Source: a virus
Strand: one strand, 5' to 3'
Length of the DNA: 26,824 bases
Virus record (IMG/VR): IMGVR_UViG_3300020411_001140
Location: 1 to 26,824 of that record
The notes beneath the pieces are model-generated. The model was not told where the DNA came from. It saw nothing but the letters and a program-made list of their open reading frames with translations, and made no database searches. The stretch's first letter is position 1; each line of letters begins with the position of its first letter. Positions 7,070-25,255 of the stretch are shown piece after piece. The translations under genes and the position numbers were made by a program.

Positions 7070-7990
7070 TCACTGTTCACGAATCACGTTTGGTCTGTAA
7101 TAGTCCAAATTCTGACCCATGTTCATTCCATAGGTATCACCCTTGGAATAGTCAGTATCACTGAAGTCTAAGTTTCCTTTTGAGTCAGTGGATACCTGAA
7201 CTCCATAGAGATGCTCGATGGTTTGGATACTTTGTTCCAAGTTCATACCCGCAGCCTTGTAGAGTTCTAAAAGTCTGTAAATGTGCAACTGAGAGATATC
7301 TGGTTTTCCGTAGATTTCAGCTGTGTCAGCGATGTTCCCATCCCACATACCTTCAGCAATCATCTTCTCTTGAATACCAAACTCTTTGTTCATTTCTTCC
7401 CAGTTGTAACTGTATCTTTCATTTAGATACGCTTGTCTTTCACGAATCATTTCCTCGAAATTATCGAAGGACTCGACTTTGACTTTCTCTTTCTTTCCAG
7501 ACATTTTTACCTTTGCTTTATCTGTCTTTGGAGTAATAGGGGTTTTCTTTCCCTGTCCCGCCATTGGTCGACCCATTGAGTCAACTGCGGGTGGAGCCTC
7601 TGCTCCTCCCGCGGCTGGTGGACCAGCTTCGGGTGGTGGTGCTTTCTCCTCTCCACCTTCTTCTGGTTTCTCTTCTTCGTCATCCGACTTTTCGTCTTCT
7701 TTCTCATCGTCTGACTTCTTGTCATCTCCACCCTCTTTGTCACCTACAGGGTCACCCTTTTCATCGTCTTTCTTTGGAGGAAATGGTGGTTTCTTTTCGT
7801 CACCCTCTTCATCTTCCTCATCTTCTTTTTCGTCTTTCTCTTCTTCAGGTGAAGCCTTGGCTTTTTCGGCCTTGAGTTTAGCACGTTCCTCAGACTTCTT
7901 CTCCTTGAGACGCATGGCCCTGACTTCTTCCTTATGAGTAGCATGGACCATGTCAACAATTTTGTGTGCTAGGTCAGCATATTTGGACAT
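7070..7990 (-). CDS. Acidic low-complexity protein
   Basis: 306 residues, ATG at 7990 with AAGGAAACT before it, overlapping the upstream gene by 17 bases. A helical head (MSKYADLAHKIVDMVHATHK) leads into about 120 residues made almost entirely of E, D, K, G and P (roughly 35-155), then a folded C-terminal region of about 130 residues (FDNFEEMIRERQAYLNERY and further helices, ending in a tyrosine- and asparagine-rich tail). No enzyme motif is seen. The design, a structured end with a long polyampholyte linker, fits a scaffold, head-core or appendage-connecting protein, especially beside the fibre-like gene. The antisense strand carries long serine-rich open frames here, which are artefacts of the biased composition. 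Confidence 0.65.
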   Translation of the reverse strand: MSKYADLAHKIVDMVHATHKEEVRAMRLKEKKSEERAKLKAEKAKASPEEEKDEKEDEEDEEGDEKKPPFPPKKDDEKGDPVGDKEGGDDKKSDDEKEDEKSDDEEEKPEEGGEEKAPPPEAGPPAAGGAEAPPAVDSMGRPMAGQGKKTPITPKTDKAKVKMSGKKEKVKVESFDNFEEMIRERQAYLNERYSYNWEEMNKEFGIQEKMIAEGMWDGNIADTAEIYGKPDISQLHIYRLLELYKAAGMNLEQSIQTIEHLYGVQVSTDSKGNLDFSDTDYSKGDTYGMNMGQNLDYYRPNVIREQ

Positions 7991-10019
7991 AGTTTCCTTG
8001 TGGTAAATATTCTTCGTTTCGAATTCTTGGGTCTACAATGAAACCATTTTGTTTCATCCACTCAGTACCCATAAGGACTGGATAACCCATATGTGACCTG
8101 TCGGAAAGTGAAAAGTTGACTTTGTAGGTCTTTCCTCTGAAGTTCATAGGAATTTCAACGACTGGTCTTTTCTCCTTGTCAGTTCCTACTGCACCCATAA
8201 CAACCTCATAGTCCTTGATAGGAAAGGTTGCCAGTTTACCTGTGTCACCGACTTTAAAAATAGCTTTAGACTTCGTGAGTTTTAGGTCACGAGCGTCAAG
8301 TGTTGCTGAACCTGAGTTTCCTGTATCCATCTTACACATCATCTCACCCCAAGCAAAACTCACAGGTTCAATGACTCCAATTGGAACGGACTGTTTGGTC
8401 CAGTTTTCTTTTTCAGAATAGAACTCATACAGAATGTCGATGAGTTGTTTTCCGTCAATATCTTCTTTCTCTTGGATGTCATAATATTTAGCTGACACCC
8501 CAGGCGAACCATTTACTTCAAGTACAGTCAGTTCACCTTTTCTGTTTACAGCGATATCAACTCCTGAGAGTCTCATACCTATCGCTCTTGTGGCCTCCTC
8601 AGCAAGTTCGTTCATTGCTGGTGAGGGTTTGTAAGCTTGAAAGTCTCCTCCCAAGTCAACGTTGGTTCGAAAGTCTCCCTTCGCCATCGTTCTCTTGAGA
8701 CCAAACCTTGCCTTACCTTCGTGACAAATGACACGAACATCATACTTGAGGTCAAAGAACTCTTGAGCAATGAGTTGAGCATCTGTCTGTTTAGAGAAAG
8801 CGTCAACCACTCCTCTGAGTGATGATAGACTTTCCATCTTCATAACACCTTTACCCTTCGAACCTGTAATGGTCTTGAGCATCATTGGGAACTTTCCACC
8901 CAACTGTTCGACAACCTCATCCGTAATACCTGAATGAATGATAGCTGTTCGTGGTGTCCTAATACCTTCGGACTGTAGAATACGAGCAGTCGACAACTTG
9001 TTTCTCGCCGCGTCCATCGCCTCCATAGAGTTGAGGAATGGTACACCCGCTTGTTCAACCGCTTTTGCAACACCCATTCGACCTTCGTCCATCAGAACAG
9101 AACCAAGAGGAATTGCAAAAGTGTTTGTCGGGTCTACGGACAATGACTTGTTCTCTCCATTGTAGTTGTGTATTACCAACTGAGTATCTTCGACAAGATG
9201 AGTAAACGCCTTGTCAACATATACAATGTGAGTATTCTCGTTCTTTGCCCAATATTGTTGAGGTGTAGAGTCTTCTGGTTTTACGACACAAAGAATGAGA
9301 AACGTAGGTGTCTCTTTCTGTTCCATCAATCTTCGATAGGTAAATTTTTCCTCTACTTCTCGTGCTTCAACGACTACCTCTGTCTCTGGAAAATACTCTT
9401 CCCATTGGAACTCACTCCAGTCTTCTTTGATTTTCATAGCCTTACGTAAGGCCATGTACATCTTCTTGGCGTCGTTGTCATTCAACTTTGAAGGTACACC
9501 CTTTCGAAACTCCCCATAGTTATTATCAGTAGCAAGTGCTCTCATCTTACTCGCTGACATACCTGACACATCTTCTGCGTCTGGGTCTCTTTCACCAGCG
9601 GAGACAACCTCGAAACTAGAACCAACTGACTTGTCCTTGTCTTTGTGGTTGACATACTTTGAAAACTGAGCTCGGAACTGAGGCACCCTATCAGATCCCG
9701 CTACCATAATCAACTTAGTGTATCCCTTGTCCCGCAGGTCATAAGCCACATCGAACGCAGTCCTTGCATCATCCTTCTGGACGAGTTTTCCAAATGCCTT
9801 CTTGGCAATTGCGACTTTTAGTTTATATGGTAGCGGGTCTTTCTTGGGATTTTCTGAGTGTGAAAGATAAAGAAATGGGTCGGCATTATTCTTCTTGGCG
9901 ACTTTTTGTATCGTCTGTACAAGAAGTTCGTGACCAGTTGTTGGAGGGTTTAGACGGCCGAAAGCGAATACAGCCGTCTTACCTGTATCTTCTCTGAGTT
10001 GAAAGAATGACTTGGCCAA
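7974..10019 (-). CDS. Three-domain fusion: nucleotidyltransferase, ATP-grasp ligase, RimB-like aspartic protease
   Basis: 681 residues if started at the TTG at 10019, which has AGGTGG seven bases upstream; a GTG at 10031 is the alternative (numbers below use it). Residues 1-14 (AKSFFQLRED) look like a capsid-targeting leader. Domain 1 (about 18-200) is a cytidylyltransferase-fold enzyme: GRLNPPTTGHE with the TxGH motif (31-34) and MSASKMR (158-164), as in NMN or phosphopantetheine adenylyltransferases. Domain 2 (about 240-540) is an ATP-grasp ligase of the RimK type: LKTITGSKGKGVMKM (385-399) and LEVNGSPG (504-511). Domain 3 (about 548-670) matches the RimB/ATP-dependent zinc protease family related to retropepsins: MDTGNSGSATLDA (568-580) and the LSDRSHMGYPVLMG block. 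Together they suggest adding and removing amino acids on a protein or peptide, plus a nucleotidyl transfer step. Confidence 0.8.
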   Translation of the reverse strand: MAKSFFQLREDTGKTAVFAFGRLNPPTTGHELLVQTIQKVAKKNNADPFLYLSHSENPKKDPLPYKLKVAIAKKAFGKLVQKDDARTAFDVAYDLRDKGYTKLIMVAGSDRVPQFRAQFSKYVNHKDKDKSVGSSFEVVSAGERDPDAEDVSGMSASKMRALATDNNYGEFRKGVPSKLNDNDAKKMYMALRKAMKIKEDWSEFQWEEYFPETEVVVEAREVEEKFTYRRLMEQKETPTFLILCVVKPEDSTPQQYWAKNENTHIVYVDKAFTHLVEDTQLVIHNYNGENKSLSVDPTNTFAIPLGSVLMDEGRMGVAKAVEQAGVPFLNSMEAMDAARNKLSTARILQSEGIRTPRTAIIHSGITDEVVEQLGGKFPMMLKTITGSKGKGVMKMESLSSLRGVVDAFSKQTDAQLIAQEFFDLKYDVRVICHEGKARFGLKRTMAKGDFRTNVDLGGDFQAYKPSPAMNELAEEATRAIGMRLSGVDIAVNRKGELTVLEVNGSPGVSAKYYDIQEKEDIDGKQLIDILYEFYSEKENWTKQSVPIGVIEPVSFAWGEMMCKMDTGNSGSATLDARDLKLTKSKAIFKVGDTGKLATFPIKDYEVVMGAVGTDKEKRPVVEIPMNFRGKTYKVNFSLSDRSHMGYPVLMGTEWMKQNGFIVDPRIRNEEYLPQGNYVQIC

Positions 10020-10020
10020 A

Positions 10021-10968
10021 TTACTTCCCACCTATAGTCATTCCACCATTTTTCTTAGGACGGACTGTAGTTACTGAACCTTTGCCAGCAACTCCACCTT
10101 TTCCACCCCAACCTTCTTGTTTTTCTTTGGCGGCCTCTTCCCAGTATTTCTGAGCGTTGACTGCTCCTTTTTCCTGAGCGGCACGAACAGCCTCTTCGAA
10201 AGTCATGTTCTCTTTGACCTGTTCGTCTTCACCTTTATTCTTTTTGATGGACTTGTGTGTAGACTTCTTCATCGTGACTGGGTGAGTCTTACCACCAATT
10301 TTTACACTGTCCTTGCCTTGAGAAGCGGCGTGAGCGATGGCACCCATAAAGGATTCCTCGTCCTTTGCACTCTTCTTGGCTTCGGAAATGTTTTCTACTT
10401 GTTTAAGGTCGATATTCATTTCGGATTCCTCGTTGTAAACGTTGAGTAACACTTTATTCTGTGCCACGTAAGTATTAAAAACGGACTGTGGTTTGTCCTT
10501 CTTCATTGCCATTGCAATGAACCCATCTTTCTGTGCCAGTTTCTTCATCTTACCCATGTCGAACTTGGCATTCATTTCTTCTAGTTCTTGTTCTTCGACA
10601 TCATCAGCTGCTTTAGTATTGAATGGGTCAAACTTTTTACCTTTTTTAGCATCCTTCATTCTTGTCTTCAGGTCTTCCTGCTCTTGTTCTTCCTGAGCAT
10701 TAATGTTACCTTCTCCCCCATCTTGACCTTTGACTTTGTTAGACTTTCCAGTCTTATGAGCCTTGTCTTCTACGTCTTCTGGATGTTCAGGTTTCTTACC
10801 TGTTATAAACGTATCTCTATCGTCTTTTCCAGATGCGGCATGGAAGTGTTTTTCTTCGTAGTCAGAAGTCTTCTTGGAGATAGGGTGTTCTTGATGACCA
10901 CCTTTCTCGCCTGGTGTTTCTGTATACTTCTCATTCACTACGTTCTTGATCTGGTGCTCCAGTCTCAT
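10021..10968 (-). CDS. Lysine/glutamate-rich virion-associated-like protein
   Basis: 315 residues from the ATG at 10968, preferred over one at 11007 because the longer form would overlap the 54-residue ORF completely out of frame, and AGGA lies shortly upstream. It begins MRLEHQIKNVVNEKY, then a long hydrophilic, probably disordered stretch (about 15-130). A compact region follows (KMKKLAQKDGFIAMAMKKD, FNTYVAQNKVLLNVYN), then I194-S-E196|A, a prohead-protease-type site. A helical block (MGAIAHAASQGKDSVKIGG) and a glycine/lysine-rich tail end the protein. It sits directly before the three-domain fusion gene. Probably an internal head protein; no catalytic residues are seen. Confidence 0.65.
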   Translation of the reverse strand: MRLEHQIKNVVNEKYTETPGEKGGHQEHPISKKTSDYEEKHFHAASGKDDRDTFITGKKPEHPEDVEDKAHKTGKSNKVKGQDGGEGNINAQEEQEQEDLKTRMKDAKKGKKFDPFNTKAADDVEEQELEEMNAKFDMGKMKKLAQKDGFIAMAMKKDKPQSVFNTYVAQNKVLLNVYNEESEMNIDLKQVENISEAKKSAKDEESFMGAIAHAASQGKDSVKIGGKTHPVTMKKSTHKSIKKNKGEDEQVKENMTFEEAVRAAQEKGAVNAQKYWEEAAKEKQEGWGGKGGVAGKGSVTTVRPKKNGGMTIGGK

Positions 10969-11095: not shown

Positions 11096-12352
11096 TTATC
11101 CCCAGTTCTTTATTGCGTTAAAATTATTCATACTAAACTCTAGGCGGTCAATGAGTTTGACAGCCTTACCACCAGATATTGCAACAAAACCCTCTGGGTT
11201 GGTCACCTTAAAACCTGTGTCTGTTTTGACAAAGGTATCTGTCATTCCTTTTATCTTTTCAAGTTTGTGTGTGATGAAATTCTTACAAACCTGAAATGCA
11301 CGCATAACATCAAATATCATTTTTATCTGGTCTTTGCGTTCTAGTAAAGTATCTAGGAGTAACTGCATTGCAGCTGTTTTTCTGTCTCGTGATGCCTGAG
11401 TCTTGAGTTTGTCTATCTCTTTCATGTACTTTGTCTCTACGTGTTTTATCACTCCAGCCGCCATTCTAGCGGTATCACGTATTGGTTGACCTTCTCTGAC
11501 ATTCTTATTGATATAAGCCTTCATGTCAACAGTCAGTTTGTTGTCTTCCGCGATCGCGTTCAAGACTGACTTGTCAACCTTGGTCATCAACTTTTCGATG
11601 AGAGAAATAAACCTATCAATGACTCTGGTCTCTTTCTGTGTGAAGGAGACAGTTCCACCCAAGTCACGAATGGATGCGTCTTTTATCCAACATCCTTTCG
11701 CCTTTGTCCTAGATGCATCAACTCCGAATGACGCCTTCATATCAGCCAGAGTTGGTCCACCTGTGTACTTTGTGTGGAATACAATACCCAGTTGTGCCTT
11801 CTTGATTTCAGCTTCAAGTGGTGTTCCTGAAGGAACTGCATAAACAATCGTGTTTGGTTGAAATGTGGTGTATGACTTTCCTTCGATGGTTGTCTTCTCC
11901 AAGTCTCCAGAAGTCCACATCAAGTCACCTTGCCATACTTCCTTTGGTGGAATGTTGGCCTGAGATAACAACTTGAGAGCTAGTTTCAGTTTTGGGTTGA
12001 GACCTGAACCTGAATAGTATTCGTCAACATCACCTTCTGTTTTACAAAGTTTTGGGCTTCCAGCAAAGACTCCTTTGGTCCCTACAAAGAAACGTCCATC
12101 TGATGGGTCTTTACCACAAAACACAGCTGGAGCTCCATCCCATTTCATTGTGATATCGGTTTCTCCTTTGGACTTTCCTGCGAGCATGTCTCGTAAGGCG
12201 ATGAGGAAGTCTGTTGCTGTTTTGACTCCATCAGTTCCTCCGTTAAGTACCTCATCTTCCAGATGTTCAAGATGAACGTTCTTTCCGTCTTTACCTTCAA
12301 CGAAAAACCATTTGCCGTCATCTATCTCCGTTATTTGCCTGAAACTGAACAT
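11096..12352 (-). CDS. DNA/RNA ligase-like nucleotidyltransferase (marine phage family, probably DUF6267)
   Basis: 418 residues. From memory it matches a marine T4-like phage family of unknown function (I believe DUF6267). In the sequence I see motifs of covalent nucleotidyltransferases: motif I K70-W-D-G-A-P, where the lysine would carry AMP; a motif III-like QGDLMW (141-146); motif IV E387-G-F-V; and motif V K396-A-V-K. The order and the short IV-V gap are as in RNA and DNA ligases, but about 240 residues separate III from IV, so there is a large insertion. The N-terminus MFSFRQITEIDD resembles the capsid-targeting leaders of neighbouring genes. It could be an end-repair ligase delivered with the genome; this needs proof of lysine adenylylation. 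ACAGGAG precedes the ATG. Confidence 0.7.
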   Translation of the reverse strand: MFSFRQITEIDDGKWFFVEGKDGKNVHLEHLEDEVLNGGTDGVKTATDFLIALRDMLAGKSKGETDITMKWDGAPAVFCGKDPSDGRFFVGTKGVFAGSPKLCKTEGDVDEYYSGSGLNPKLKLALKLLSQANIPPKEVWQGDLMWTSGDLEKTTIEGKSYTTFQPNTIVYAVPSGTPLEAEIKKAQLGIVFHTKYTGGPTLADMKASFGVDASRTKAKGCWIKDASIRDLGGTVSFTQKETRVIDRFISLIEKLMTKVDKSVLNAIAEDNKLTVDMKAYINKNVREGQPIRDTARMAAGVIKHVETKYMKEIDKLKTQASRDRKTAAMQLLLDTLLERKDQIKMIFDVMRAFQVCKNFITHKLEKIKGMTDTFVKTDTGFKVTNPEGFVAISGGKAVKLIDRLEFSMNNFNAIKNWG

Positions 12353-12370: not shown

Positions 12371-12377
12371 GTCTTAT
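12371..12377 (-). promoter_or_regulatory. T4-like late promoter motif (CTAAATA)
   Basis: The minus strand reads CCTAAATAAG here, 19 bases before the ATG of the ligase-like gene, overlapping the stop codon of the gene before it. Late promoters of T4 have TATAAATA, and CTAAATA-type versions are described for related cyanophages. As only one such motif sits clearly in front of the virion-like block, the call is tentative. Confidence 0.35.
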
Positions 12378-13153
12378 TTAGGGTCTCCTGCGACGTTCCA
12401 AAAGAGGTTGACTTTCGAAGGATTATACAGTTCCTTCATAGGTTTCCAGACCTTGGCGTCGTATTCACGGGCCGATGGGAATGGTGGTAAGTCTTCTTCT
12501 TTACAGGGTTGATTGTACTTATAGGATACTGGATGGACTGTTGCATTTCCAGCCTCTTCTTGGTCCATCTTATGTCCAGTTTGAACACAATGAAACTCAG
12601 AGTCAGGCCAAGCCATCTGTAAACCACGTGTGAGTGTACCAGATGAACCAACTGTCCATACAACTTCGGGGATGATTGGTAGGTTTCGAGCTACCTTGAT
12701 GATAGCTCCTAGTGTGATGTCATGTTCCAAACCTATCGGAACATTCATTCTTGTGGTAGGACTTTGTTCGACATACTTTTTACAGTGTGCCTTGGTGACG
12801 GATAACATACCCATCTTGACCCAAGTGATTTTACCACCCAAGTCGGAATAGTATTTTTGATGTGGTGTGGGTTCTTTCCTGTCAGCGTAAAACGAGTGTG
12901 CTATCTTTCCATACTTTCTACACAAGTATGCAAGTGAGATGTTTCCCCAACCAACGGAGTTACTCCCTCCATAACAAAACTCATCTACTGGTGTGTCACG
13001 AATCAGTTTATCAGCGAACCTGACTTTTGAACCACCTTCTTGTAGGTCATCACGAACTACAACGATTCCATCGTAGTCTACGAGAACTGGGAAAGGGTTC
13101 GGGTCTTCCCAGTCTTTGACTAGGTCGAGATAATCGTCAGGCCCAAAAAGCAT
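12374..13153 (-). CDS. PLP-dependent enzyme-like protein, fold type II
   Basis: 259 residues, ATG at 13153 with AGGATTAG before it, overlapping the methyltransferase end by 17 bases. Residues 33-46 (VRDDLQEGGSKVRF) resemble the lysine segment of the ACC deaminase/D-cysteine desulfhydrase group, with K43 as the candidate PLP lysine. GGSNSVGWGNISLAY (62-76) matches the substrate/phosphate-side loop (GGxxSNH-like), and TVGSSGTLTRGLQ (167-179) the serine/glycine-rich phosphate-binding loop. Known members have about 330-350 residues, so this is a shortened version. Possible roles are amino-acid breakdown or, given the methyltransferase next door, addition of an amino acid to a modified base as in some phage DNA hypermodification paths. 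The motifs are visible; the reaction is not. Confidence 0.6.
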   Translation of the reverse strand: MLFGPDDYLDLVKDWEDPNPFPVLVDYDGIVVVRDDLQEGGSKVRFADKLIRDTPVDEFCYGGSNSVGWGNISLAYLCRKYGKIAHSFYADRKEPTPHQKYYSDLGGKITWVKMGMLSVTKAHCKKYVEQSPTTRMNVPIGLEHDITLGAIIKVARNLPIIPEVVWTVGSSGTLTRGLQMAWPDSEFHCVQTGHKMDQEEAGNATVHPVSYKYNQPCKEEDLPPFPSAREYDAKVWKPMKELYNPSKVNLFWNVAGDPK

Positions 13154-22987: not shown

Positions 22988-23261
22988 GACGTTTCCATGC
23001 TGAAGCACCTAGGATAGCACCCATTGCAATATGAAACATCCCACCATTTCTCAATGTATAAGGTTGCCAAGGTGGTGGAATATTATGAAAACAAACAGAC
23101 TGTTCTACTCCTCTGCCGACACAATCTTCAAAGAATGCAGCAACATAGAGGTTCCACCATATTGCACCAACAACAAAATCAAATAGGCATATAGAAATGT
23201 AAACCAGTGCTAACCAGTCTCTCCAGTAAGTATGTATCGTATGGTTAACCGCGAACGCCAA
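22950..23261 (-). CDS. Small membrane protein, possible holin
   Basis: 103 residues starting at a TTG (23261) inside the PAP2 gene end; no ATG is available before residue 75. Two or three hydrophobic segments are present: WLALVYISICLFDFVVGAIW (16-35), a weaker stretch with VCFHNIPPPWQPYTL, and GGMFHIAMGAILGASAW (73-89), ending in a charged tail (KRHEEKKSKSSVSE). The pattern of an aspartate in the first helix, a GGxFH-type entry to the last helix and a charged C-terminus resembles three-helix holins of phages and gene-transfer agents. The lipase, PAP2 and M15 genes nearby support a lysis or envelope role. The call is tentative. Confidence 0.5.
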   Translation of the reverse strand: MAFAVNHTIHTYWRDWLALVYISICLFDFVVGAIWWNLYVAAFFEDCVGRGVEQSVCFHNIPPPWQPYTLRNGGMFHIAMGAILGASAWKRHEEKKSKSSVSE

Positions 23262-24165
23262 CGTCCGCCTTCACGTTCCTGACTGAACCTTTGAGTCGTG
23301 ACTTTTCTCTACGTCCTCTGTTCTTTGAGGCTGACTCAAACCCGACTATCTTTCCATTCTTGTGAGATGCATCTTTACCATCTCCATTTCCGTAAGTTCC
23401 CTTCTGTCTATTGTACTTGACCAACTCAGCCCTGTACTTGATTCTCTCTGGTGAACTTTGGAATTTCTTGTACTCAGCCTTGTAGTCTCTCTTGTAGGCC
23501 TCGTCCATGTTCATCTCTATTTTGGGATAGACCTCGTTTGCGAGTTTGACACTTGCATCATGGTCGGACGGATAGTGCCATCCTGAATAGACTCTACCCA
23601 TACCACATTCTTCCGCGGCCTTCATCAGACCTTCTTTGTGTTTTGGATACTTTTTGGTGAAGTGGTTTGCAAGAAGTCTTGACTGTAGACTGTGTCCAGA
23701 TGGATATGCTGGTGACTTCATACTGTCACTGTGTAATGGCATGAAGTCAAAGTCCATCTTCATATTGTCAGCTAGATGATAAGGTCTTGGTCTTCCAAAC
23801 TTGTTCTTGAAATGTCGAACGATACCAGAACCAACGTCCTTGATTTTGTCCATCTCTTCTTCACTATACTCAAGGTCATTTTCGTCTAGGTATTTCTTGA
23901 TAGCAAAACCAGACTCAGCGTCGTGGTCCTTGACACTCTGTTCCATCTCTGGTGTTCTTTTCTTGAACATCTTTTGCATCTCTTCCAGTTCCTTGACTGT
24001 CTCAGAACTAGAGTTGACAGATGGTTCCGCTACCTTCAATGACTTATAGTCTCCCTTGAAGTTCTTCACTGGTTTGTCTTCTACTTTCTTGTGAAGAAGA
24101 GCGTCAACATCGTTCTCGTTTTTATATTGTTCTAAGATGAAATTACAGAATGACTTAAAACTCAT
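23245..24165 (-). CDS. PAP2-family phosphatase with capsid-targeting-like start
   Basis: 306 residues. All three PAP2 motifs are seen: K120-x6-R127-P128 (KNKFGRPRP), P155-S-G-H158, and G190-R-x5-H197-x3-D201 (GRVYSGWHYPSD), giving the expected catalytic histidines. No membrane helices, so this is a soluble enzyme of the acid-phosphatase/haloperoxidase type. The N-terminus MSFKSFCNFILEQ looks like a capsid-targeting leader with an I-L-E cut site. The tail (about 240-306) is basic (KNRGRREKSRLKGSVRN). Possible substrates are phospholipid heads, undecaprenyl or nucleotide phosphates; the sequence does not say. The ATG at 24165 overlaps the lipase stop (ATGA). Confidence 0.85.
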   Translation of the reverse strand: MSFKSFCNFILEQYKNENDVDALLHKKVEDKPVKNFKGDYKSLKVAEPSVNSSSETVKELEEMQKMFKKRTPEMEQSVKDHDAESGFAIKKYLDENDLEYSEEEMDKIKDVGSGIVRHFKNKFGRPRPYHLADNMKMDFDFMPLHSDSMKSPAYPSGHSLQSRLLANHFTKKYPKHKEGLMKAAEECGMGRVYSGWHYPSDHDASVKLANEVYPKIEMNMDEAYKRDYKAEYKKFQSSPERIKYRAELVKYNRQKGTYGNGDGKDASHKNGKIVGFESASKNRGRREKSRLKGSVRNVKADVGVRG

Positions 24166-24872
24166 CTAAGCTCCTTCAAATACGCATTGATTGAGTGGTC
24201 ACGTGCGTCTATCTTACCAAAAGACTCTCTACTTTTTTCACCACCTTCAACCCACTCCAATGTCTCTGCGTTTATCTTGATACCTGAATGTTTGTAAGGA
24301 TAGGGTGGAACAAAAGGGACTGGGTCCGTTTCAAACACCACACGAAAATGTGGTACTTCAAACTTCCACCATCCTCCTACTGCTATTTTCGGTGCACCAA
24401 ACGTGTAGACTTGTACAATGTGACCATCTTCTTGTAACCAGATAGAAAGTATCTGGGCCATTGCTCCACCCAGTGAATGTCCTGTTAAGTAAATGGTCTT
24501 GTCTCTATGTTGGTCTTTAATCGAGTCGTAGACTTTAAGTGCCGCATCATGAAACCCACGATGAAAGAGTATTTCCGCACTTTTGTCATGATAAAAGCGG
24601 GCGTCTATGTCTGAGACCACATTTCCAGCGTTCGCCGTTCCACGGATCGCGATTATCGTTACACCTTCTTTGTAATACATTCTGTACATCAAGTCACCGA
24701 CTTTGGTTCCGTCATCGTATACATCGACACAATACTGTGCCATCTCTACAAGTTCCTCAACCTTAACTGGTAAAGTCTCAGGACTTCCCTTGTCTCCATC
24801 TGAATACAGATACGGATTCAAGGCGGAACATGAACCAACCAAAAATGCTATAGCTACAACTAAGTACCTCAT
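24162..24872 (-). CDS. Class 3 lipase, predicted lipoprotein
   Basis: 236 residues, ATG at 24872 overlapping the preceding stop. The N-terminus MRYLVVAIAFLVGSC is a lipoprotein signal peptide with lipobox L-V-G-S-C15. The lipase fold shows the oxyanion stretch IAIRGTANAGNVVSDIDA (74-91), nucleophile elbow T-G-H-S133-L-G-G, then D183 in F-E-T-D-P-V-P-F and H226 in A-R-D-H-S-I-N, a complete Ser-Asp-His triad. It would be exported and anchored to a membrane, where it could hydrolyse phospholipids. That suits a lysis or envelope-damage role, possibly taking the place of spanins. A lipoprotein lipase is an uncommon phage gene. Confidence 0.87.
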   Translation of the reverse strand: MRYLVVAIAFLVGSCSALNPYLYSDGDKGSPETLPVKVEELVEMAQYCVDVYDDGTKVGDLMYRMYYKEGVTIIAIRGTANAGNVVSDIDARFYHDKSAEILFHRGFHDAALKVYDSIKDQHRDKTIYLTGHSLGGAMAQILSIWLQEDGHIVQVYTFGAPKIAVGGWWKFEVPHFRVVFETDPVPFVPPYPYKHSGIKINAETLEWVEGGEKSRESFGKIDARDHSINAYLKELR

Positions 24873-25255
24873 ACCTCTAACTTCTTATTTGGTGTACTGA
24901 AGTTTTTCTTTCTCATGACTGTCTTCGCCACCAAGTCCAACATACCACCGCGATCAGGCTGAAGTACAAAAGGCATATTAACATCAGTTTGCATGTCATG
25001 AATGACCGCCTGTGCTCCCGCTCCCATTGGACTAATCTTCTTTCCGTATTTCTTGTAGGTCTGTTTGAACAACCTTATCAACTCTGCGGGTGTTATGGGT
25101 TTCTTGTTACGTTCGTCATTAACTCTATCTTTGAAGTGTTTTGTAAACTCAATGTCAAGACCTACTTTGGCAAAGAGTTTGTCAGCATACTTTTCCACAT
25201 TGTCAAGGTCACGTTGTGTAACCTCTTCATAGATGTAGTTATCAAACGTCAGCAT
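24869..25255 (-). CDS. Conserved phage protein, possible RelE/BECR-like toxin domain
   Basis: 128 residues, ATG at 25255 overlapping the iscU end. The N-terminus MLTFDNYIYEEVTQ looks like the capsid-targeting leaders of this phage. The core F-T-K-H-F-K-D-R-V-N-D-E-R-N followed by KKPITPAELIRLF and, later, MPFVLQPDRGGMLDLVAKTV has the layout of small BECR-type nucleases (a histidine/arginine helix, a helix with ITxxEL, then strands). From memory it is a common protein in marine T4-like phages with no proven role. If packaged, it could act on host RNA at infection. The toxin idea is a guess from motif layout alone. Confidence 0.6.
   Translation of the reverse strand: MLTFDNYIYEEVTQRDLDNVEKYADKLFAKVGLDIEFTKHFKDRVNDERNKKPITPAELIRLFKQTYKKYGKKISPMGAGAQAVIHDMQTDVNMPFVLQPDRGGMLDLVAKTVMRKKNFSTPNKKLEV

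Follow-up and report, generated by a model that had tools for sequence, protein, structure and literature searches.

We analyzed P0001, a gene of the protein family DUF6267 that is encoded on a 26,824-nucleotide stretch of viral DNA (IMG/VR record IMGVR_UViG_3300020411_001140, positions 1 to 26,824; hereafter, the window). Our results are best explained if its product is a covalent nucleotidyltransferase that probably acts as polynucleotide ligase, with RNA ligases as closest fold neighbors, and that is packaged in the phage head and co-injected with the genome; we give this composite explanation a little better than an even chance. A covalent-nucleotidyltransferase fold and active site are predicted by the models with high confidence. 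A function as polynucleotide ligase is reasonably probable, based on the fold neighbors and on the ligases missing from these phages. Head packaging appears quite likely for the long forms of the family, judged from their N-terminal sequences and a published partner protein; for the window copy, the N-terminal sequence leaves the chances evenly balanced.

The open reading frame runs on the minus strand from position 12352 to 11096 and encodes 418 amino acids (aa) followed by a stop codon. The product matched the Pfam model PF19782 (DUF6267) with an E-value of 1.2e-103 and also belongs to phrog_455. Both families are without assigned function. The DUF label proposed by a first-pass annotation of the window was correct. 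By tblastn, DUF6267 was found in ~470 phage records, almost all of which are phages of Synechococcus or Prochlorococcus. The nearest named relative of P0001 is Methylophilales phage Melnitz-3 (44% identity). Matches in bacterial genomes were mainly located in metagenome bins and had the appearance of phage contigs, and a search of a plasmid collection returned no relatives. The name DUF6267 was not found in our literature search. The 26.8-kb window also codes for a DNA polymerase, UvsX, a DnaB-like helicase, and Hsp20.

Relatives were gathered from viral contigs, bacterial bins, and named phages, and 134 sequences were aligned after reduction at 80% identity. No variation was observed in any of them at K70, D72, G73, G80, F89, K93, Q141, D143, Y171, H193, T194, Y196, N282, K357, E387, G388, and K399, and P75 is invariant wherever the alignment column is filled. 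A second alignment of 127 sequences (A3) agreed for K70, D72, G73, K93, Q141, D143, E387, G388, and K399. All positions expected for ligase motifs I, Ia, III, IV, and V are among the invariant residues. They include the K-x-[DN]-G of motif I (K70, D72, G73), the acidic residue of motif III (D143), the glutamate of motif IV (E387), and a motif V lysine (K399). The first-pass annotation had recognized the motifs in the strings K70-W-D-G-A-P, QGDLMW (Q141-G-D143), E387-G-F-V, and K396-A-V-K399, all of which are present in P0001, and its expectation that K70, D72, E387, and K399 do not vary was borne out in both alignments. Only K396 had to be dropped as a motif V residue: since a lysine occurs there in just 8 of the 75 sequences having that column, motif V is represented by K399 alone. 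The features of the gene are as follows:

11096..12352, minus strand: DUF6267 protein P0001, 418 aa, predicted covalent nucleotidyltransferase or ligase-like enzyme
12254..12280, minus strand: family signature NVHLEHLED N-terminal of motif I, residues 25-33 (H27, E29, H30, E32, D33)
12134..12145, minus strand: motif I, K70-W-D72-G73, with the putative nucleophilic lysine; K, D, and G invariant (134/134)
12065..12091, minus strand: motif Ia-like element, residues 88-96, with invariant F89 and K93 (compare FKSKGS of T4 Rnl1)
11924..11932, minus strand: motif III, Q141-G-D143; Q and D invariant
11765..11776, minus strand: motif IIIa-like H193-T194-x-Y196, invariant, on strand 188-197 as assigned by DSSP
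11261..11638, minus strand: helical insertion between motifs IIIa and IV, residues 239-364, from conservation and model, with invariant N282 and K357
11183..11194, minus strand: motif IV, E387-G388-F-V; E and G invariant, in hhalign register with EGYV of Rnl1
11144..11158, minus strand: motif V, K399-L-I-D-R403, with one lysine; K399 invariant, R403 in 132 of 132 sequences

The distance of about 240 residues between motifs III and IV, correctly noted before, amounts to 244 residues in P0001 (D143 to E387). The family comprises two size classes, a long form of ~400 aa and a short form of ~300 aa that lacks ~75-100 residues, mostly between these two motifs. Since the spacing is only 168 residues in the short form L131 (D123 to E291), the extra length can be attributed to a variable helical insertion. 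As a separate observation, the two invariant residues inside this insertion, N282 (window positions 11507-11509) and K357 (11282-11284), do not vary in the 134 sequences. In the S-PM2 record L020 (NC_006820.1), DUF6267 is divided between two reading frames of 198 and 437 aa.

Structures were predicted with AlphaFold2 using 127 family sequences. The model of P0001 reached a predicted local distance difference test score (pLDDT) of 91.8 and a predicted template modeling score (pTM) of 0.88, with values of pLDDT <50 for residues 1-20; the short form L131 (325 aa) gave 90.9 and 0.86. In the P0001 model, motif I lies at the end of strand 65-70, motif III on strand 138-147, and motif IIIa on strand 188-197. 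E387 immediately precedes strand 388-393, K399 is located on strand 396-400, and residues 239-364 form the helical insertion. Only 19 residues follow K399, with one helix (403-412) and no accessory domain. When the predicted models were compared to known structures with VIA-align, ligases accounted for 48 of the 50 chains listed for P0001 and for all 50 listed for L131, which points to a ligase-type core fold, although Foldseek gave weak matches. The top match of P0001 was the Naegleria RNA ligase with Z 8.5 (root mean square deviation [rmsd] 3.6 over 184 residues), a value also reached by models that have no clear match; VIA-align itself cautions that Z values of this size are middling. It was followed by TbREL1 (Z 8.1, rmsd 4.4, 196 residues), Trl1 (8.0, 4.4, 190), T4 Rnl2 (7.5, 4.0, 178), T4 Rnl1 (7.2, 3.8, 165), and an archaeal Rnl (7.0, 4.4, 183), and DNA ligases scored Z 5-6. 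Both models were thus placed among RNA ligases, including those of T4 with which a comparison had been suggested. We accepted the ligase fold because models of two size classes led to one superfamily, the very one predicted by the motifs. Residues 24-413 of the model aligned on residues 143-339 of the Naegleria enzyme, with K70, E387, and K399 approximately at K170, E312, and K326. Our assessment of the pocket draws on the order of the strands and on the aligned ranges. Together with the invariance of K70, D72, E387, and K399, the fold comparison supports the earlier suggestion that a divergent covalent nucleotidyltransferase is hidden under the DUF label.

By sequence, DUF6267 lies outside the known ligase families, since profile comparisons recovered only motifs IV and V with Rnl1 and nothing with Rnl2. 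HHalign of the short-form alignment against eight T4 Rnl1-type proteins aligned just these two motifs, in register, with HEGFVSVS-DK-PYKI of DUF6267 opposite IEGYVAVMKDGSHFKI of Rnl1 (P = 0.0013). The long-form alignment gave the same motifs (P = 0.0045), Rnl2 gave no support, and global hhalign produced no usable alignment. No ligase was matched in phmmer and profile searches of PDB by sequence. We therefore rejected membership in the Rnl1, Rnl2, or gp30 families: no model of these matched, motif V has one lysine instead of two, and the C-terminal domain is absent, as is the C-terminal OB domain of ATP-dependent DNA ligases (PF01068) in P0001.

The first-pass annotation had further suggested that the enzyme is delivered with the genome. 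The N-terminus of both T4 internal proteins IPII and IPIII is MKTYQEFIAE, the first 10 residues of which are enough for packaging; targeting depends on residues 4 and 7 and cleavage on residues 8 and 10 (PMC9026906). Long-form DUF6267 proteins start with MINYQDYLTE, MINYTEYLTE, MLNYQEYLTE, MKFSEYITE, MFAFSEFLTE, MINFSKYITE, and similar sequences, for which we use MINYQEYLTE as shorthand. As targeting criterion we required bulky residues 4 and 7 and an [IL]-x-E end, scored either as a loose pattern or in the T4 register. The loose pattern was matched by 77 of 87 distinct long-form N-termini and the T4 register by 59, compared to 77 (11.9%) and 32 (4.9%) of 648 other open reading frames from the same loci; when N-termini were shuffled, 4.2% of trials yielded a loose match. 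A gp21-type prohead protease is encoded by all nine named DUF6267 relatives (the window itself is a fragment). The corresponding feature of the window copy is:

12326..12352, minus strand: residues 1-9, MFSFRQITE, capsid-targeting-like propeptide by pattern match, ending in a cleavage-type I-x-E; degenerate relative to other family members (pLDDT <50)

The idea of delivery is thus sustained by the targeting-like N-termini of most long forms and of a neighboring protein, but less so for the window copy, which is degenerate and fits the loose pattern only. Capsid-targeting-like N-termini were also observed at 23245-24165, 24869-25255, and 706-1014, all on the minus strand (MSFKSFCNFILE, MLTFDNYIYE, and an inner MKSFKELSE), and judged from these sequences, the window may code for several head-internal proteins.

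The neighboring protein is encoded downstream of DUF6267:

7974..10031, minus strand: partner, a three-domain fusion of an HxGH "cytidylyltransferase" domain, a RimK-like ATP-grasp domain, and a retropepsin-like/PF05618 domain

Its N-terminus in the window, KSFFQLRE, resembles a capsid-targeting sequence, and T4-GC190, the HxGH "cytidylyltransferase" downstream of DUF6267, starts with MKKFSAFLxE or MKSFKSIFE. According to a published study, the S-SM1 ortholog of T4-GC190 was detected by mass spectrometry in purified virions (PMC3037559). In 101 loci, a partner of the GRFNPPTxGH/SASKMR type is encoded a short distance downstream of DUF6267, in the same orientation; 70 loci have no such partner within reach downstream. 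Both proteins are fused in locus L125 and in a 591-aa S-PM2 protein (BFVD, A0A0M6VVW4). Because of the targeting-like N-termini, the S-SM1 virion protein, the 101 loci, and the fusions, the DUF6267/HxGH pair has the look of cargo destined for the head, in which either protein or both may bear the tag. A PDB sequence search returned no identity for the HxGH partner. A zeta-toxin or polynucleotide-kinase-like (AAA_33) P-loop protein is encoded within 4 kb of DUF6267 in 18 loci; such a kinase would suit end repair, but this is only suggestive. In L007-L017 and other loci, the HxGH domain is fused to or located beside a zeta-toxin/AAA_33 kinase next to DUF6267. The neighbor upstream in the window (12374-13153, minus strand) matched phrog_7093, "threonine dehydratase" (E-value 1e-30), but no Pfam model.

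In nine DUF6267 phages, the models PF01068 (DNA_ligase_A_M), PF01653 (DNA_ligase_aden), PF09414 (RNA_ligase), and PF09511 (RNA_lig_T4_1) gave no match, whereas T4 matches three of the four (PF01068, PF09414, and PF09511) and has no DUF6267. A 2010 review reported that cyanomyoviruses show no homologs of gene 30 and concluded that any homologs in these phages are either distant and unrecognized or missing altogether (PMC2984593). The absence of other ligases is compatible with a DUF6267 ligase but does not prove it.

If the prediction holds, DUF6267 works like Rnl1, Rnl2, and gp30. For catalysis, substrate, cleavage, and injection we infer the following scheme. K70 would attack ATP or another nucleoside triphosphate to form a lysyl-nucleoside monophosphate (NMP). 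In this step, D143 and E387 would bind the ribose and the metal, and K399 would bind the alpha phosphate. A nucleic acid would then receive the NMP at its 5'-phosphate end, and the 3'-OH would close the break. Known ligases have extra domains for which the 19 residues after K399 leave no room; their place would be taken by the helical insertion that separates motif IIIa from motif IV. In many long forms, the N-terminal targeting sequence of 9-10 residues would direct the protein to the prohead core, where the gp21-type protease would remove it by a cut following I/L-x-E. Once matured, the enzyme would enter the cell together with the DNA and be active before phage gene expression; possible tasks at entry are sealing nicks of the incoming genome or repairing broken tRNA. 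In its fullest form, this scheme would identify DUF6267 as the polynucleotide ligase that seems to be missing from marine T4-like phages and as a new ligase family with a helical insertion instead of accessory domains, loaded into the head via its own targeting peptide or that of the HxGH partner and injected for entry repair. We put this complete version forward tentatively, as possible rather than probable.

Several results weigh against a packaged ligase. A targeting peptide occurs in only 2 of 32 short forms, the window copy fits just the loose pattern, and the available portions of the literature searched do not report DUF6267 in virions. The 2010 review favors the view that cyanomyoviruses have no gene 30 homolog and that the host ligase can substitute (PMC2984593). 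A Pfam scan of P0001 and 60 DUF6267 members revealed no ligase family, Foldseek found no significant match in PDB, and the top VIA-align score falls under the caution given above. The local HHalign probability was 18% with Rnl1 and <1% with Rnl2. Finally, the second-lysine position of motif V is mainly I/V in DUF6267, but the K-x-K is invariant in the Rnl2 and Rnl1 sets. A first alternative is that the motifs resemble those of ligases by chance and that the protein has an unrelated fold, as the non-significant Foldseek E-values and the missing profile matches might indicate. But two separately modeled members both yielded lists of ligases, and the motif lysines and glutamate occur in ligase order on the expected strands, so that we regard coincidence as the least probable explanation. 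We regard it as hardly less improbable that DUF6267 has kept a ligase fold but lost catalysis, and serves inside the head as a scaffold or DNA-binding protein: head-internal proteins need no enzyme activity and none is known for DUF6267, but every catalytic position is strictly conserved across proteins down to ~25% identity, which is not expected of a dead enzyme.

Two other explanations carry more weight, but we consider both rather unlikely. DUF6267 could transfer NMP to a small molecule, a protein, or an RNA 5' end without ligation, as part of a pathway shared with the neighboring HxGH nucleotidyltransferase. The partner's presence in 101 loci and its fusions in L125 and the 591-aa S-PM2 protein would agree with this, as would the single motif V lysine and the lack of an OB domain after motif V. 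But the nearest folds are RNA ligases that likewise have no C-terminal OB domain, capping enzymes are absent from the listed aligned chains, and 70 loci have no such downstream partner. A role in mRNA capping was set aside, based on this absence and on the lack of an OB domain and motif VI after motif V; the capping enzyme 1p16 was among the non-significant Foldseek matches. Alternatively, DUF6267 could be an ordinary repair or replication ligase that acts during infection and carries its N-terminal peptides incidentally, a view to which we assign a similarly low probability. Its genes adjoin those for polymerase, UvsX, and gp41, and the near absence of the peptide from short forms extends to those of common cyanophages. 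Against this stand the frequency of the T4 register in long forms compared to other open reading frames and the similar peptide of the partner, a known virion protein.

T4-like cyanophages, nearly all of which carry DUF6267, are among the most abundant marine viruses. Should DUF6267 prove to be a ligase, the protein that closes the cyanophage ligase gap would have been encoded in these genomes all along. Its injection would further mean that phages deliver a repair enzyme along with the genome. Head-internal proteins are known chiefly as anti-restriction proteins and ADP-ribosyltransferases, and repair would be a novel role for them. We know of no virion-packaged ligase, and DUF6267 would be the first; our literature search found no report of a capsid-targeted ligase, and to our knowledge no T4 internal protein is a ligase.

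Compared to known systems, DUF6267 shares with T4 DNA ligase gp30 (PF01068) the superfamily core and would fill the same vacancy, the tested DUF6267 phages being without gp30, but it lacks the OB domain and motif VI, and DNA ligases score lower structurally. T4 RNA ligase 2 (PF09414) resembles it in the Lys-x-x-Gly of motif I, a basic Ia residue, G-[ED] in motif III, EGYV, and the fold (Z 7.5), but has a C-terminal helical domain that DUF6267 lacks, and profiles give no support. With T4 RNA ligase 1 (gp63; PF09511), it has in common KxDG, an FKSKGS-like Ia, a P-N-x-I-x-x-Y-like element after motif III, and EG[YF]V...K in register. It differs by its long insertion and by the lack of a C-terminal domain and a second motif V lysine, and the PF09511 model does not detect it. 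The Naegleria RNA ligase carries an N-terminal OB domain. This enzyme, from Naegleria gruberi (PDB 5cot, 6vt3), is the top structural match of both DUF6267 models and has the same catalytic order K-x-D-G, E, K, with a IV-V spacing of 14 compared to 12 residues, but identity is only ~10%, and DUF6267 has the helical insertion between IIIa and IV and no N-terminal OB domain. Unlike the T4 internal proteins, the short forms of DUF6267 are without a targeting peptide. But the N-terminal aromatic-x-x-aromatic-[IL]-x-E, as in IPII and IPIII, and a gp21-type protease in the genome liken the family to these proteins and to Alt, which are packaged in the T4 head and co-injected.
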